Assembly (NCBI RefSeq): GCF_030687535.1
Contig: NZ_CP117437.1
Coordinates: 2,315,501-2,379,500, forward strand
Length of the DNA stretch: 64,000 nt
Reading direction: 5' to 3'
Source: Pseudomonas sp. FP2335
GTDB taxonomy: Bacteria; Pseudomonadota; Gammaproteobacteria; Pseudomonadales; Pseudomonadaceae
Part shown: piece by piece, positions 45,384-51,213 of the stretch
Layout of the letters: every line of letters begins with the position of its first letter
Numbering within the stretch: position 1 is the first letter of the stretch
The notes under the pieces: generated by a model
Told to the model about the DNA's origin: nothing
Database searches by the model: none
The model's input: only the letters and a program-made list of their open reading frames with translations
Program-made: the position numbers and the translations under genes

Positions 45384-45404
45384 AAAGTACATGACGTGTA
45401 CTTT
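45384..45404. promoter_or_regulatory. NrtR-type operator
   Basis: Perfect 8-nt arms aaagtaca / tgtacttt with a 5-nt spacer (tgacg), 26 nt before the pncA start. Arms, spacing and position fit the operators known for the NrtR family. Another tgtcatgtact stretch lies nearby at about 45337. Confidence 0.8.
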
Positions 45405-45430
45405 TGTTTCCAGGCCACAGGAGAACCGCC

Positions 45431-46078
45431 ATGACCCTCGCGAAAACCGCCATTGCTTCATTCGACGTCGATGCCCAGAAGAGCTTCACGCCGCTGTGCC
45501 CCAACGAACTGCCGGTGGCCGGCGGCGACCAGATCGGCGCCGAGCTCAACTTCATGGCCAGCCTCGCCGGCCATCGTGTCGGCAGCAAGGATGCGCATAC
45601 CCCGCACGCCCCGTGGGTGGTGGCGCAACACAGCGAGATGCTGCAACCCACCGGCCTGGCCCATGCCGATGTGACCTGGGTCAGCCACTGCGTACCCGGC
45701 ACCGAAGGCTTCACCTTGCTCGACGAGTTGCCCACCCCGTATGACTACGACTACTTCATCTGGAAAGGCGTCGAACCCGACCTGCACCCCTACGGCGCCT
45801 GCTTTCATGACCTGCACGACAAACTGTCCACTGGCGTCATCGAGTACCTCAAAGCCCACGGCGTGAGCCGCGTGCTCGTCGGCGGCCTGGCCCTGGACTA
45901 CTGCGTCAAGACCACCGCGTTGCAACTGCTCAAGGCCGGCCTGGAAGTGGTCCTGCACCTGCCCGCCTGCCGAGGCATCAGCGAAGAGGGCGGTGTGCAG
46001 GCGGTCAACGATCTGCTCAAGGCCGGTGCCGTAATTAGCAGCACCCGCGAAGAACTGGCCGCGATGGCCAGGCGTTAA
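45431..46078 (+). CDS. pncA: Nicotinamidase
   Basis: A 215-residue isochorismatase-fold hydrolase converting nicotinamide to nicotinate for NAD salvage. Catalytic Asp is in FDVDAQKSF, metal ligands in KDAHTPHAPW, Lys in FIWKGVEPD, and the nucleophile Cys in GGLALDYCVKTTALQLL. ATG 45431 is chosen: gagaaccgcc precedes it, and the longer frame from 45404 starts inside the operator. It lies 11 bp before pncB. Confidence 0.93.
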   Translation: MTLAKTAIASFDVDAQKSFTPLCPNELPVAGGDQIGAELNFMASLAGHRVGSKDAHTPHAPWVVAQHSEMLQPTGLAHADVTWVSHCVPGTEGFTLLDELPTPYDYDYFIWKGVEPDLHPYGACFHDLHDKLSTGVIEYLKAHGVSRVLVGGLALDYCVKTTALQLLKAGLEVVLHLPACRGISEEGGVQAVNDLLKAGAVISSTREELAAMARR

Positions 46079-46089
46079 GGAGAACCACC

Positions 46090-47307
46090 ATGGAAAGTGC
46101 CTACGACTACGAATCCCCGGTGATCCAGGGATTGCTCGATACCGACTACTACACCTTCACCATGATGCAGGCCGTGTTGCACCAGCACCCCAACGTCGAT
46201 GTGGAATACAACTTCATCGTGCGTTCCAAGGAAAAGCTCGGCCACTTGATCCCGCAACTGCGCGACGAACTGGAAAAACTCGCTGGCCTGCAGATGCGTG
46301 AAGGCGAGTTGCGGTTTCTGTTCAACCCGCGTTTTCGCGAATACCTCACCCCGGATTACGAGCGTTTCCTCGGCCTGTTCCGTTTCAACCTGCGCTATAT
46401 CCATGTCAGTGAAGTCGATGGCCAACTGAACATCCGCGTGGTCGGCCCGATGCTGCACTGCATCATGTTCGAACAGCCGGTGCTGGCGCTGGTCAGCGAG
46501 TTGCGCAACCGCGACAAGTACCCCGACGTGAGCCTCGAAGACGTCACCCGCAAGCTCTACCAGAAGTTTGACTGGCTGGAGAAAAACCTCAGCCGCGACG
46601 AACTGGCCGACCTGCGCGTGTCTGATTTCTCCACCCGCCGGCGCCTGTCGTTCAAGGCCCAGCGCGAAGTGGTCGACATCATGCGCCGCGACTTCCCCGG
46701 CCAGTTCGTTGGCACCAGCAACGCGCACCTGGCCTATGAATTCGACTTGCCGCTGATCGGCACCATGGCCCACCAATGGCTGATGGTGCACCAGCAACTG
46801 GGGCGCCTGCGTGAGAGCCAGAATGCGGCGTTGGAGAACTGGGTGCGTGAGTACCGTGGCCGCCTCGGCATTGCCTTGACCGACTGCATCAGCACCGATT
46901 TTTTCCTCAAGGACTTCGACCTGTACTTCGCCAAGCTCTACGACGGCCTGCGCCAGGACTCCGGTGACCCCATCGCCTGGGCCGACAAAGTATTGGCCCG
47001 CTACAAACAACTGGGCATCGACCCGATGACCAAGGACCTGATGTTCTCCGACGGCCTGAATTTCGAAAAATGCCTGCCGATCCTGCGCCACGTGCGTGGC
47101 AAGGCCAGGTTCGGTTTCGGCATGGGCACCAGCTTGGCGTGTGATGTAGAAGGCGTCGAACCGCTGAGCATCGTGATGAAACTGGTGCGGGTGCACGGCG
47201 AGCCAGTGGTGAAGTTCTCCGATGACCCGATCAAGAATGTCTGCGAAGACGCCTCGTTTTTGCAGTACGCGGCACAGGTGTTCAACGTAGGTAGCGTGGA
47301 GGTGTGA
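46090..47307 (+). CDS. pncB: Nicotinate phosphoribosyltransferase
   Basis: A 405-residue enzyme joining nicotinate and PRPP to give nicotinate mononucleotide. Signature blocks: LLDTDYYTFTMMQAVLHQHP at the start, VSDFSTRRRLSFKAQREVV, GTSNAHLAYEFDLPLIGTMAHQW (the catalytic-His block), and CISTDFFLKDFDL. The length matches bacterial PncB. aaggagaacc precedes ATG. It lies between pncA and nadE, consistent with one operon. Confidence 0.95.
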   Translation: MESAYDYESPVIQGLLDTDYYTFTMMQAVLHQHPNVDVEYNFIVRSKEKLGHLIPQLRDELEKLAGLQMREGELRFLFNPRFREYLTPDYERFLGLFRFNLRYIHVSEVDGQLNIRVVGPMLHCIMFEQPVLALVSELRNRDKYPDVSLEDVTRKLYQKFDWLEKNLSRDELADLRVSDFSTRRRLSFKAQREVVDIMRRDFPGQFVGTSNAHLAYEFDLPLIGTMAHQWLMVHQQLGRLRESQNAALENWVREYRGRLGIALTDCISTDFFLKDFDLYFAKLYDGLRQDSGDPIAWADKVLARYKQLGIDPMTKDLMFSDGLNFEKCLPILRHVRGKARFGFGMGTSLACDVEGVEPLSIVMKLVRVHGEPVVKFSDDPIKNVCEDASFLQYAAQVFNVGSVEV

Positions 47308-47308
47308 C

Positions 47309-48118
47309 ATGCAAGAGCGTATTGCGCAGGAACTCAACATCAATCGGCGCTTGGTGGCGGGTGGCGAGCCCGGGGAAATCCAACGACGCATCGACTTCAT
47401 CAAGACCACCTTGCGCCAGTCCGGCTGCCAAGCCCTGGTGCTGGGCATCAGCGGTGGTGTTGACTCCCTGACTGCCGGCCGCCTGTGCCAACTGGCGGTG
47501 GAGCAATTACGCGCCGAGCACTACGACGCACGCTTTATTGCCATGCGCCTGCCTTACAAAAGCCAGGCGGATGAAGCCGATGCCCAGGCCTCACTGGCGT
47601 TTATCACTGCGGACCAGGTCGATACCCTGAACATCGCCGCCAGCGTCGATGGCCTGATGGCCAGCCTGAGCGCCACTGAACCCAGCGCCGCCCACATCGA
47701 CTTCATCAAAGGCAACGTCAAGGCGCGCGCACGGATGATTGCGCAGTACGCCGTGGCCAACCTGCACAACGGCCTGGTGGTCGGCACCGACCACGGTGCC
47801 GAAGCGTTGATGGGGTTTTTCACCAAATTCGGCGACGGCGCGTGCGACCTGGCGCCACTGTCGGGCTTGACCAAAACCCAGGTGCGCCTGCTGGCCACGG
47901 CGCTTGGCGCACCGGCCAGGCTGGTGCACAAACAGCCCACGGCTGACCTTGAAGAGCTGGTGCCTGGCAAGTTGGATGAGCACGCCTACGGGTGCACCTA
48001 CGAGGAAATCGATGCGTACCTGATGGGCGAGCCGGTGAGCGAGCGGGTGAGGGGGATACTGCAGGGTGCTTACATGAAGACGGCTCACAAGCGCGCACTG
48101 CCAATTACCCCGATCTGA
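47309..48118 (+). CDS. nadE: NH3-dependent NAD+ synthetase
   Basis: A 269-residue enzyme for the last step of NAD synthesis. It has the ATP-binding P-loop SGGVDS (GISGGVDSLTAGRL) and the substrate regions FIKGNVKARARMIAQYAVAN, VVGTDHGAEALMGFFTKFGDGACDLAPLSGL and LVHKQPTADLEELVPGK. It starts 1 bp after the pncB stop, with gtggaggtg upstream. Confidence 0.95.
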   Translation: MQERIAQELNINRRLVAGGEPGEIQRRIDFIKTTLRQSGCQALVLGISGGVDSLTAGRLCQLAVEQLRAEHYDARFIAMRLPYKSQADEADAQASLAFITADQVDTLNIAASVDGLMASLSATEPSAAHIDFIKGNVKARARMIAQYAVANLHNGLVVGTDHGAEALMGFFTKFGDGACDLAPLSGLTKTQVRLLATALGAPARLVHKQPTADLEELVPGKLDEHAYGCTYEEIDAYLMGEPVSERVRGILQGAYMKTAHKRALPITPI

Positions 48119-48230
48119 CGCTGGAGTTTGCAGGTTTCATGGCGATAGGTCGTTATTTGTCGGCGAAAGCAACGTGCGGGGAGCGAGGAAAGTTAACCGA
48201 GAGGTATCGGCAAGCTCATGGGTGCTTGCA

Positions 48231-48259
48231 GGAACCATTCGACAGCCAGTTGCCACAGA
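48231..48259 (+). promoter_or_regulatory. hrp box (HrpL-type ECF sigma promoter)
   Basis: GGAACC (48231-48236), a 16-nt spacer, then CCACAGA (48253-48259). This is an exact match to the GGAACC-N15/17-CCACNNA consensus for HrpL-dependent type III secretion promoters. It lies 72 nt before ATG 48332 on the same strand. The 48119-48331 stretch holds no other gene. Confidence 0.85.
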
Positions 48260-48331
48260 GAGGAGGTCGATCCTGTGCGCGCCAACGAGTGGGGGTCGGC
48301 AGTTATCGATTCCACTATTTGAGGTTGTGCC

Positions 48332-49432
48332 ATGTACCATTTAAGTCTTCATCAGGAATCGCTTTTCAATGGCGGTTTTATCCAGCGTAGTGAGCAGCCC
48401 GGAATTGCGCTTACCAGCATCTATATGAACGTGCCCAACTCATCAGTGGCCCGTGAGTTCGCCCACAACTTCGATCACTTCCGCAGGTTCGGCAGCGACT
48501 TTGTCACGCGTCCAAACCTTGAGTGGGCGGCCGGCCGCCAGCCGATGGGGGATAACTACGTCAACCGGATGACCTCCCTCGCCCGAGAGCTCCTCAGCCG
48601 TCCTGAAGTGAGCCAACTGCTGAGTAATCAAGTCAGCCGGGGCGATGCGGACGCTATGATCATGCATTTTGATCAACGGGAAGCTCCAATGCTGCGTGAA
48701 GCGCCCAAGTACCACTGCAGTGGCTTGCAGCAGCGGCCCGACGGTCAATTCAACTTTCGCTTGGCCCTTCAAGCCTCCCCGCAACTGCCGGCTTTGGACG
48801 GCCAGTACGCCAATCGCAGCCAGTGGAACGGCCCGGCCCAAGATTCCGGGAATCGTCCGTATGCCAATGACTCAAAGGAGGAGTTCTGCAACAAGATACT
48901 GGCGCGTTTCAGTGCCTTTGAAGATCCGAATTCTCCGGGCATGATCACCGACAAGTCCCTCAGTGCCGTTGCCAGCGGTTATCGCCTGGATGGCCAGCCC
49001 GCCACGCAGAAGGAGGTAGATCTGGCCAATGAACTGCTGGAGCGGGGTGGCTTGTTCAAGGAGCTTGATCAAAGCAGCATGGGCGTAATGGACGGCGCTT
49101 TCTCCAGGGGCAATTTGCAGTTCTCGTCGGACAAGTATCGCAATATGGGTGATCACGACCTGCTGCAAGGCGTTAAAGACAACTTCAGGCAATTCACCGC
49201 TGGCGCCAACGATAAGTACGTCAACGTCAATGAGTTGAAGGAAGCGGCAGGGCTTATCCCGTCCAATCGTACGTTCAGTCAGGAAGCCCGCCAATTGGCT
49301 GCTGAGCTTCTCAAACGTCCAGGCCTGCTACGAGACCTGGACATCGGTATCAAAGTGGAGAGTGGCAAGCCGGGCGCAGAAGACCAACGCTTCGATATCG
49401 ACAACCTCAACCACATGCTCGGTAAAAGCTGA
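48332..49432 (+). CDS. Three-repeat protein, candidate HrpL-dependent type III secreted protein
   Basis: The specific family of this 366-residue product is not recognised. It has no signal peptide or membrane segment. The first 30 residues are polar with several Ser/Gln (HLSLHQESLFNGGF), as in type III secreted proteins. Three similar units follow: about 42-100 (EFAHNFDHFRRFG, LARELLSRPEV), 183-260 (NKILARFSAFEDP, LANELLERGGLFKELD) and 292-366 (GVKDNFRQFTAG, LAAELLKRPGLLRDLD). Each combines an F-x-x-F helix, an EF-hand-like loop and an L-A-x-E-L-L-x-R helix, reminiscent of repeats in HrpF/NolX/HrpK translocators. The gene is visibly less GC-rich than its neighbours, which suggests transfer. 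Two His/Asp-rich loops may bind metal. Confidence 0.65.
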   Translation: MYHLSLHQESLFNGGFIQRSEQPGIALTSIYMNVPNSSVAREFAHNFDHFRRFGSDFVTRPNLEWAAGRQPMGDNYVNRMTSLARELLSRPEVSQLLSNQVSRGDADAMIMHFDQREAPMLREAPKYHCSGLQQRPDGQFNFRLALQASPQLPALDGQYANRSQWNGPAQDSGNRPYANDSKEEFCNKILARFSAFEDPNSPGMITDKSLSAVASGYRLDGQPATQKEVDLANELLERGGLFKELDQSSMGVMDGAFSRGNLQFSSDKYRNMGDHDLLQGVKDNFRQFTAGANDKYVNVNELKEAAGLIPSNRTFSQEARQLAAELLKRPGLLRDLDIGIKVESGKPGAEDQRFDIDNLNHMLGKS

Positions 49433-49451
49433 TCGTCAGCGGGTTGAGGCA

Positions 49452-49483
49452 CAGCGATGAGTCGGTGGCCCGGCTCATCGCTG
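49452..49483. terminator. Long hairpin after the three-repeat gene
   Basis: Arms cagcgatgag(tcgg) and (ccgg)ctcatcgctg, about 14 bp with one T-G pair and a 4-nt loop. There is no long T tract, but the position 20 nt after the stop fits transcript ending. Confidence 0.6.
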
Positions 49484-49520
49484 CTGTTATCGGGAACCCG
49501 GACCGATCATCGTTTTAGGG

Positions 49521-49610
49521 CGTAGTAGCGGGCTTGCTCGCGAAAGCGGTCTGTCAGCTGGTGCAACCGCTGACTGATACACCGTTTTCGCGAGCAAGCC
49601 CGCTCCCACA
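49521..49610. repeat. REP inverted pair
   Basis: Left arm cgggcttgctcgcgaaagcgg and right arm ttttcgcgagcaagcccgctcccaca face each other across about 40 nt. It is continuous with the composite repeat that follows. Confidence 0.85.
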
Positions 49611-49726
49611 GGTGATTGGTGTTGATGGATCGTGAGTGTTCGGCTGGAGATTGCCCAGGCACTGCCAATCTCCCGTGGCTGTCGAGCTTTAGCGAGGCTG
49701 CGCAGGCGGCGGCACTGTTGGTAGAG
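49585..49726. repeat. Composite repeat, copy 2
   Basis: Matches copy 1 (36718-36862) across the REP arm, the ggtgattggtgttgatgga linker, the aggcactgccaatc segment and the gtcgagctttagcgaggctg module, with a handful of substitutions and a small deletion. The rest of the interval up to the MATE gene shows no gene. Confidence 0.85.
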
Positions 49727-49857
49727 GTGGAGCGTTTCATCCTGACCATGGCAGATGAAGGGCGGCAAGCTGCGGCGTTCTGCATTCCTCGTTACTGGAT
49801 TGGATCCATTTGCGGTATAAGCTCGCATCGCGCTTGTGTCACGAGGCTCCGTTTTTC

Positions 49858-51213
49858 ATGCAAAACCCTATGCAACGCCCGCTATGGCAGATCTACCTGA
49901 TCTTCCTGGCGCCGATGGTGCTATCCAACTTCCTGCAAAGTTTTTCCGGCACGCTCAACGGCATCTACGTCGGGCAGATGCTCGGCACCCAGGCGCTGGC
50001 GGCGGTGTCGGGGATGTTTCCCATCGTGTTTTTCTTTATCGCCCTGGTCATCGGCCTGGGGGCGGGCGCCTCGGTGCTGATCGGCCAGGCGTGGGGCGCG
50101 CAGGAGACAGGGCTGGTCAAGGTGATCACCGGCGCGACCCTGACCCTGGGCGCATTGGTGGGGGTGATCGCGGCGGTGCTCGGCAGCTTGTTTGCGCGTC
50201 CGGCGTTGCAGGCGTTGGGCACGCCGGTTGACGTGTTGGACGATGCGGTCGGCTATGCGCAGATGATGATGCTGATCATGCCGCTGCTGCTGGTGTTCAT
50301 CCTCTACACCCAACTGCTGCGCGGTGTCAGCGATACGGTGTCACCTTTGCTGGCGCTGATGGTCTCGACCCTGGTCGGGCTGCTGCTGACCCCGGCGCTG
50401 ATCCGGGGCTGGATCGGCCTGCCGCCCATGGGTATCCAGAGCGCGGTGTATGCCGGGCTGGTGGGTAACGCTTCGGCCATGCTGTTTCTGATCCTGCGCC
50501 TGCGCCATAAAAATCATGTGATGGCCCCCGACCGTGAACTGCTGGCGGCCCTGCGCCTGGACCGCGTGATCCTCGGTAAAGTCCTGCGCATCGGTTTGCC
50601 CACTGGCTTGCAGATGGTGGTGTTGTCGCTGTCGGAATTGGTCATCCTTGCCCTGGTTAACAGCCATGGCTCCCAGGCCACCGCGGCCTATGGCGCGGTG
50701 ACGCAGATCGTCAACTACGTACAGTTTCCGGCGCTGTCGATTGCCATCACTGCATCGATCCTCGGCGCCCAGGCGATTGGCGCGGGGCGGCTGGAGCGTA
50801 TCGGGCCGATCCTGCGCACCGGGCTGCTGATCAATACTTGCCTCACTGGTGGCTTGATCGTGCTGGGTTACTTGCTGTCGCACTGGTTGCTTGGCCTGTT
50901 CATCACCGAGGACGCGGCGCGGGTGAGTGCCGAGCACCTGCTGCATATCATGCTGTGGAGCATCCTGGTGTTTGGCTTCCAGGCCGTGGTCGGCGGCATC
51001 ATGCGGGCCAGCGGGGTGGTGCTGATGCCGGTGGCGATCTCGATCTTCTGCGTGCTCTGCGTGGAGCTGCCGATGGCCTATCTGTTCAACGCGCACTTCG
51101 GCCTGGAAGGCGTGTGGATGGCGTTTCCGGTGACTTACCTGGCGATGCTCGGGTTGCAGGTCACGTATTACCGCCTGGTATGGCGACACAAGCAGATCAC
51201 GCGGTTGGTGTGA
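49858..51213 (+). CDS. MATE-family multidrug efflux protein
   Basis: A 451-residue inner-membrane exporter with about twelve hydrophobic segments in two halves. Family blocks: LAPMVLSNFLQSFSGTLNGIYVGQMLG at the start, GAGASVLIGQAWGAQ, LRGVSDTV, and in the second half LPTGLQMVVLSLSELVILALVNSHG and LSIAITASILGAQAIGAGR. ATG 49858 is preferred, with the next ATG at 49870 possible. It probably exports cationic compounds by Na+ or H+ antiport. The last 17 bp overlap the convergent TetR gene. Confidence 0.92.
   Translation: MQNPMQRPLWQIYLIFLAPMVLSNFLQSFSGTLNGIYVGQMLGTQALAAVSGMFPIVFFFIALVIGLGAGASVLIGQAWGAQETGLVKVITGATLTLGALVGVIAAVLGSLFARPALQALGTPVDVLDDAVGYAQMMMLIMPLLLVFILYTQLLRGVSDTVSPLLALMVSTLVGLLLTPALIRGWIGLPPMGIQSAVYAGLVGNASAMLFLILRLRHKNHVMAPDRELLAALRLDRVILGKVLRIGLPTGLQMVVLSLSELVILALVNSHGSQATAAYGAVTQIVNYVQFPALSIAITASILGAQAIGAGRLERIGPILRTGLLINTCLTGGLIVLGYLLSHWLLGLFITEDAARVSAEHLLHIMLWSILVFGFQAVVGGIMRASGVVLMPVAISIFCVLCVELPMAYLFNAHFGLEGVWMAFPVTYLAMLGLQVTYYRLVWRHKQITRLV

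Follow-up and report, generated by a model that had tools for sequence, protein, structure and literature searches.

We analyzed a stretch of 64,000 nucleotides from Pseudomonas sp. FP2335 (positions 2315501–2379500 of the genome; hereafter the window), in which a gene for a protein of 366 amino acids lies just downstream of an hrp box, the promoter element recognized by the sigma factors HrpL and RspL. The box, GGAACCATTCGACAGCCAGTTGCCACAGA, has the form GGAACC-N16-CCACAGA, is on the forward strand at 48231–48259, and fits the consensus that we took from PMC6647874. As described by an earlier reading of the sequence (the original prediction), the match is exact, and 72 nucleotides separate its end at 48259 from the ATG at 48332. 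That reading took the gene to be a stand-alone, acquired, HrpL-regulated type III substrate, and this interpretation is partly supported. We report that the gene belongs to a real and conserved family that is linked to RspL, and we argue that it probably encodes an accessory substrate of the RspL regulon, which would be exported by the type III secretion system (T3SS) and would act as an effector-like protein on the host side.

Taken alone, the hrp box is at the chance level and says little. A shuffle of the window is expected to contain GGAACC-N14-18-CCACNNA 0.25 times, and at least one match was present in 22 of 100 shuffles. Across the 6.06-Mb genome, the GGAACC pattern has 23 matches, as compared to 34 for a backward control, and GGAACT-N15-16-CCACNNA has 9 matches versus 11 for its backward control.

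The box rises above chance because it is retained before homologs of the gene. We gathered homologs by a protein search (48 proteins with E ≤ 0.01) and by genome searches, and we defined a strict box as GGAAC[CT], a spacer of 15–16 nucleotides, and CCACNNA, located between 300 nucleotides before and 150 nucleotides after the opening of the frame. Among loci L039–L081, a strict box precedes 15 of the 16 distinct homologous open reading frames (ORFs) that score at least 300 bits and 25 of the 39 that score at least 60 bits. None of 119 control ORFs from the same loci has one; these controls are mechanical ORFs of at least 120 amino acids, not checked genes. This distribution supports the original prediction in treating the box as a probable promoter element. 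In the sixteenth strong homolog (L061), the box is present but lies further inside a long open frame. The 14 homologs without a strict box are L061, two ORFs of L049, those of L063, L064, L074, and L075, and seven short ORFs (L045, L046, L048, L050, L051, L072, and L073) that resemble only the last of the three modules of the protein (module 3, see below). If GGAACA is allowed as well, then box-like sites are also found at L049, L051, and L074. In our alignment of homologous promoters, the invariance of GGAAC and CCAC is by construction, as the rows were chosen by that pattern. The length of the spacer varies among these promoters, and TGAGGT occurs at a similar position in 12 of the 18 that were listed, including the window's (our count).

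The family also tracks RspL across the genus. We surveyed 298 Pseudomonas genomes with a profile of the family (E ≤ 0.001, with up to six candidates scored per genome), with the RspL protein (E ≤ 1e-30), and with one of the paralogs described below (E ≤ 1e-10); all of these searches could miss some members. The family profile matched in 47 genomes and RspL in 85. The latter comprise 50 genomes with RspL-like proteins (at least 68% identical to the window strain's) and 35 genomes with more distant HrpL proteins (56% identity or less), a split at 68% that we chose once the gap between 68% and 56% had become apparent. The family is present in 44 of the 50 RspL-type genomes, in 2 of the 35 HrpL-type genomes, and in 1 of the 213 genomes with neither; because related genomes are not independent and Fisher tests ignore kinship, such tests overstate the strength of this association. 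Matches of at least 300 bits were found in 10 of the 298 genomes (including the window's own), and all 10 are RspL-type.

Both of the HrpL-type matches (G044 and G146) fall in HrpK ORFs, as identified by the T3SS_HrpK1 family, PF16937 (E = 4.6e-96 and 1.7e-82). The match in G044 is weak (E = 3.9e-4) and was not reproduced by a separate hmmsearch of that locus. The sole match in a genome that lacks RspL (G001) is to a long protein whose C-terminal part is NolX-like (26.6 bits, with a cut-off of 26.1). This protein (L084, 1–3072) ends in NolX-like and EF-hand-like stretches.

The genome of the window strain, which is on one contig, encodes an extracytoplasmic function (ECF) sigma factor at 869961–870509, beside SctW and SctV. 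SctW, SctV, SctR, SctU, and SctC are all found near the sigma factor gene, each above the NCBIfam cut-off, as is a sigma-54 activator-type protein (from an rspR-like gene). Two hrp boxes, at 870715 and 883644, are in this region. The names rspL, rspR, rscV, and so on were assigned by homology and gene order. The sigma factor matched no HrpL-specific model, and the name rspL rests on its position and on its homologs; the homolog from G044 sits just before HrpK. We presume that the strain belongs to the P. fluorescens group, given its RspL-type cluster, its nearest named locus (L039, from Pseudomonas sp. PDM05, 92% identity), and what is known of the group. The cluster fits the rspL/rspR-type clusters that were reported in P. 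fluorescens-group strains (PMC6647874). It lies about 1.5 Mb from the 366-amino-acid ORF. So the original prediction was correct that no type III cluster is nearby, and it would be wrong to say that there is no cluster. The search for hrpL and type III genes that it called for turned up both an RspL-type ECF sigma factor and a Rsp/Rsc-like cluster, so the absence of such genes cannot be held against it.

The gene does not stand alone. Two further family genes are found at about 2107455–2108339 (E = 7.9e-12) and at 2108901–2109824 (weaker, E = 9.2e-4), each behind an hrp box. This region (2107397–2109824, or L029 3397–5824) encodes adjacent, distant relatives of 294 and 307 amino acids with similar modules. 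Its hrp boxes are at 2107397, 2108358, and 2108781, so that, in addition to the box before each paralog, there is one more between the two. The first paralog (2107518–2108336) was found in 40 of the 298 genomes, all of them RspL-type (40/50), so it is near-core in RspL-type genomes.

Several other hrp boxes of this strain deserve mention. In 1455831–1456651 (L032 3831–4651), a box lies 25 nucleotides before an ORF of 255 amino acids that has an astacin/matrixin-like metalloprotease match (PF01400, E = 1e-11). Another lies 32 nucleotides before an ORF of 417 amino acids that has no match in Pfam or NCBIfam and is an effector candidate (4066839–4068152, or L033 4839–6152). A third, GGAACC-N15-CCACAGA at 1424037–1424064 (L028 2037–2064), is followed by a forward-strand ORF of at least 90 amino acids that begins 244 nucleotides on; this box closely resembles that given for PFWH6_1252 in strain WH6 (PMC2997014, Table 4).

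The 366-amino-acid protein is predicted to begin with a disordered N-terminus, which is followed by three EF-hand-like pairs that are homologous to one another. Comparing the module profiles to each other gave E values of 2.1e-8, 1.6e-11, and 9e-10. Compared to the consensus of the family, the window protein has 9 residues fewer in the second loop of module 1. Our alignment (A1) combines the window protein with all but one of the 48 proteins found, leaving out P0032 (253 amino acids); EF-hand_6 matched 18 of the resulting 48 rows. No loop of the window protein keeps the full ligand set of the canonical 12-residue calcium loop (DxDxDG...E; read by eye), and we saw partial sets, such as D198-N200-G203-I205 and D294...E301 (also by eye). 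The modules might possibly bind calcium by another geometry. Nine short ORFs of 158–226 amino acids (L045–L048, L050–L052, L072, and L073) match only module 3, at 48–61% identity; a strict hrp box is present at L047 and L052 but not at the other seven.

In line with the original prediction of no signal peptide, we found no hydrophobic leader or segment anywhere in the protein, and the highest mean Kyte-Doolittle hydropathy over 19 residues is 0.51. We compared the N-terminus to the features expected of type III export signals, which we took to be richness in serine, a scarcity of acidic residues among the first 12, and an aliphatic residue at position 3 or 4. In the window protein, 6 of the first 50 residues are serine, 1 of the first 12 is acidic, and residue 4 is leucine. 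Across the 48 alignment rows, 22 have at least five serines, 46 have at most one acidic residue, and 34 have an aliphatic residue or proline at position 3 or 4. Searches of Pfam, NCBIfam, and the sequences in PDB with the single protein gave nothing useful, and a housekeeping family, which would have spoken against the proposal, did not appear in Pfam or NCBIfam.

The original prediction suggested a comparison to the HrpF, HrpK, and NolX families, which proved to be a useful lead. The window protein itself has no match to PF16937 or to PF05819 (NolX) in the Pfam search. Within the family, 27 of the 48 rows match PF16937 weakly (E ≤ 0.1; best E = 1.1e-6), the best at 28.9 bits, which is below the curated cut-off of 30.9, and 2 of 48 match PF05819 (E ≤ 0.1). 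In comparisons of profiles, the whole family matched HrpK across only 38 columns (Prob, the match probability, of 26; E = 7e-4). Against a region of 291 columns from the center of HrpK, the E values were 1.7e-5 for module 1 (Prob 78), 8.2e-5 for module 3 (Prob 61), and 9e-3 for module 2 (Prob 4), which is not a match; the reversed region, as a control, gave E values of 0.08–0.48. Against the halves of this region, the scores were E = 9.1e-7 for module 1 (Prob 91, around residues 191–228 of P0049) and E = 1.7e-5 for module 3 (Prob 79, around residues 285–355 of P0049). The window protein appears to consist of modules like those of HrpK, but the tests that we made place it outside the HrpK1 translocator family.

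The structural model of HrpK has helix-loop-helix elements in its central region. A fold search with the whole HrpK model found no EF-hand among the 50 matches listed, the best of which was unconvincing (E = 0.26). That HrpK is EF-hand-like is thus a prediction from the order of the helices in this model and from the comparison of modules. Two HrpK ORFs that we measured have a hydrophobic C-terminus (19-residue means of 1.77 and 1.88, versus 0.51 at most in the window protein).

PF16937 has no match in the genome of the window strain at E ≤ 10. Using our own label of canonical HrpK for matches to PF16937 with E ≤ 1e-78, canonical HrpK is found in 1 of the 50 RspL-type genomes versus 19 of the 35 HrpL-type genomes. 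We considered the possibility that the family and PF16937 strictly exclude each other. This is ruled out, as 12 of the 50 RspL-type genomes (G017, G048, G059, G090, G119, G121, G175, G197, G206, G209, G261, and G283) carry another PF16937 protein, of 1036–1117 amino acids (E = 1e-46 to 2e-48).

The features of the locus are listed in the table. Upstream of the gene are nadE and pncB (these names combine the label in the original prediction with our own reading), and a repetitive extragenic palindromic (REP)-like repeat is downstream, so the gene does lie between nicotinamide adenine dinucleotide (NAD) genes and a REP-like repeat, as had been noted. The G+C content of the gene is also low, as claimed: it is 56.0%, whereas nadE has 62.8%, pncB has 58.9%, and the window as a whole has 63.5%. 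In 48050–49900, we found no sigma-70 promoters or terminators, and this absence is within the expectation from shuffling. The nicotinamidase, pncB, and nadE genes at 45404–48118 of the window resemble a second, accessory set for NAD salvage. A single copy of nadE, 56–58% identical, is present in 5 of the 10 relatives that we searched.

Features in and around the 366-amino-acid ORF (positions in the window; pLDDT, predicted local distance difference test)
Feature	Position	Strand	Basis or remark
hrp box (RspL/HrpL promoter)	48231..48259	+	Exact match; -35-like GGAACC at 48231-48236, N16, -10-like CCACAGA at 48253-48259
GAGG, Shine-Dalgarno-like	48321..48324	+	7 nucleotides 5' of the ATG; read directly
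366-amino-acid ORF, RspL-linked protein with EF-hand-like modules	48332..49432	+	Sequence, alignment, and structure prediction
Predicted disordered N-terminus, codons 1-28	48332..48415	+	pLDDT below 50 for residues 1-28; putative signal for type III export
Module 1, about residues 35-117, EF-hand-pair-like	48434..48682	+	Secondary structure, alignments, and homology of modules
Linker, residues 121-173, disordered and variable in length	48692..48850	+	pLDDT below 50; family alignment
Module 2, about residues 181-269, EF-hand-pair-like	48872..49138	+	Structure model, profile search, and homology of modules
Module 3, about residues 271-366, EF-hand-pair-like	49142..49429	+	Structure model and homology of modules; aligns with about 285-355 of HrpK
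REP-like inverted repeat	49522-49557/49574-49609		Arms of 36 nucleotides, 86% complementary; downstream of the ORF

The idea that the gene was acquired is not supported in the sense of a recent insertion. A gene for the same MATE protein adjoins the family gene in 14 of 24 loci (L039–L062), and 8 of these 14 have nadE as well; these 14 loci represent 12 distinct genes (L044/L054 and L041/L056 are repeats), and at some loci the flanking sequence is not long enough to decide. At those loci, the identity to the window is 91–98% for MATE, 80–96% for nadE, and 34–59% for the family gene (92% in PDM05). Also, when compared to PDM05, the synonymous divergence (dS) of the gene is 0.083, like that of four neighboring genes (0.05–0.19). 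We therefore rejected the idea of a recent island in that form. Yet two relatives lack the family gene at this site, with nadE and MATE as neighbors 443 bp apart (L106) or 196 bp apart (L108). These two are among five relatives with this nadE that we picked by hand from the survey (L104–L108); the remaining three have no MATE gene and no family gene within the ~1.5 kb examined. A megablast search of 46090–51213 against plasmids found no match.

The gene changes quickly. As compared to PDM05, its ratio of nonsynonymous to synonymous divergence (dN/dS) is 0.45, versus 0.06–0.16 in the four neighbors (about 50 substitutions). As compared to two farther relatives, dN/dS is 0.21 for the gene, with dS saturating, versus 0.03–0.15 for the neighbors. 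In the homolog P0002, the last 93 residues (274–366) are identical to the window protein's and the rest is about 62% identical (184 of 299 columns); this mosaic suggests that modules may be exchanged. We infer an accessory gene that changes fast at a site in long use, which is often the case for effectors.

We propose that RspL would transcribe the gene from 48231–48259, together with the distant Rsc/Rsp cluster, and that the disordered, export-type N-terminus would lead the product out through the type III apparatus. The product would then fold outside the cell and work much like an effector on the host side. Its EF-hand-like modules, which appear to be remote relatives of HrpK1's central domain and come without HrpK1's hydrophobic C-terminus, may bind a partner, perhaps in a calcium-dependent manner. 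We put the effector-like role first because the gene is sporadic, evolves quickly, and encodes no hydrophobic segments. We ranked a helper role second because of the HrpK-like modules, the near-core paralog, and the fact that PF16937 matches nothing in the genome. As a helper, the protein would be a secreted, hydrophilic accessory of the translocon or of the tip, and together with the paralogs at 2.107 Mb it would replace the missing HrpK1. The similarity of modules 1 and 3 to the HrpK domain and the rarity of canonical HrpK in RspL-type genomes fit this idea, and so does P. fluorescens 2P24, whose T3SS lacks hrpK1 and is reported to be positive for secretion and negative for translocation (PMC4700148). 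On the other hand, the window protein has no hydrophobic segment, 12 of the RspL-type genomes have another PF16937 protein anyway, and a gene that is this sporadic, is missing from the site in two relatives, and evolves this fast is unlike a core part of the machine. We consider a helper role possible but doubtful.

The gene might instead encode a co-regulated protein that is kept inside the cell, such as a chaperone, a regulator of secretion, or a calcium buffer. Genes for proteins other than effectors do occur in HrpL regulons (PMC3879358), but the disordered and polar N-terminus, the variable length, the rapid change, and the relationship to a translocator domain make this quite unlikely. 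It seems very unlikely that the hrp box arose by chance upstream of a gene that is unrelated or in decay. The genome-wide counts, which do not exceed the backward control, and the shortened loop in module 1 could be explained this way, but the frame is open for 366 codons and its dN/dS is below 1. Chance is also largely contradicted already by the boxes before the homologs and by the strong co-occurrence with RspL. We can also imagine a broader scheme: the "cryptic" RspL-type T3SS of the P. fluorescens group may use a shuffling family of secreted EF-hand-module proteins, to which the window's gene would belong, in the place of HrpK1. The modules would be loose in the low-calcium cytoplasm, which would allow export, and would fold at millimolar calcium outside the cell or upon calcium signals in the host, so that calcium would switch on an aid to translocation or an effector. 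This is speculation, and we think that it is rather unlikely to be right as a whole.

Type III systems are widespread among plant-beneficial pseudomonads, but what they do is described as enigmatic, and many of the effectors predicted for them fall outside the known families (PMC3390384, PMC8780523). At least one such system, the T3SS of 2P24, secretes proteins but appears to have lost translocation, and lacks hrpK1 (PMC4700148). A family that tracks RspL in 44 of 50 genomes, carries the RspL-type promoter, and is built of EF-hand-like modules that distantly resemble HrpK provides a testable set of substrates, and the window's gene is a good candidate for a still-uncharacterized exported protein of plant-associated bacteria. 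The family also raises the question of whether the poorly understood core domains of HrpK, HrpF, and NolX are themselves EF-hand-like. Our search of open-access papers found nothing that combines EF-hand, type III effector, HrpL, and Pseudomonas, and the papers that it found on HrpF, NolX, and type III secretion do not name the EF-hand. Among the matches listed, HrpK1 and EF-hand never appeared together, and the one match for HrpF and EF-hand is unrelated by its title.

As for known systems, calmodulin and troponin C have the topology of paired helix-loop-helix elements that is predicted for the window protein, and its best matches by structure and by sequence profile are EF-hand proteins (we take 7pjd and lanmodulin to be such). 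In contrast to calmodulin and troponin C, its loops are incomplete in their calcium ligands, and each pair seems to have an extended second loop; also, the scores were weak, with mostly 8–24% identity among the matches listed. Calsymin (CasA) of Rhizobium etli counts among the closest systems by its description only, and the part of that description that we relied on states no link to type III secretion.

HrpK1, a putative translocator from Pseudomonas syringae and its relatives, shares the disordered N-terminus with the window protein (in both models), and one of the two HrpK ORFs that we looked at (L082) has an hrp box just before the open frame. HrpK1 differs in its size (open frames of 759 and 902 amino acids versus 366), in having a single large domain instead of a repeated module, in its hydrophobic C-terminus, and in that the window gene does not adjoin the gene for the sigma factor. 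In the HrpF/PopF/NolX family of translocon proteins (PF05819; from Xanthomonas, Ralstonia, and rhizobia), HrpF of Xanthomonas is reported to have two to three imperfect repeats of about 110 amino acids and NolX to have one (PMC5483457). The repeats of HrpF recall the three modules of about 95 amino acids in the window protein, which differs in lacking a match to PF05819 and a hydrophobic region. The regulator differs as well: it is HrpG/HrpX or HrpB in Xanthomonas and Ralstonia (PMC5483457).

A further comparison is to the hypothetical proteins behind Hrp(Rsp)L boxes that were predicted to be effectors in strains A506, SS101, BG33R, WCS417, WCS374, and WH6, which have the same kind of promoter and are from the same group of bacteria. 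Loper et al. (2012) reported 14–15 conserved hypothetical genes behind putative Hrp(Rsp)L promoters in A506, SS101, and BG33R (PMC3390384), WCS374 has 15 candidates and WCS417 has 11 (PMC6647874, section 11), and hrp boxes are given in the genome paper for WH6 (PMC2997014). The difference is that the relevant parts of these three papers do not give a fold or a family for these proteins. By eye, the box of PFWH6_1942 from WH6 (PMC2997014) resembles those of our loci L077, L078, and L080, and members of the family that we describe may already be among these published, unnamed candidates.
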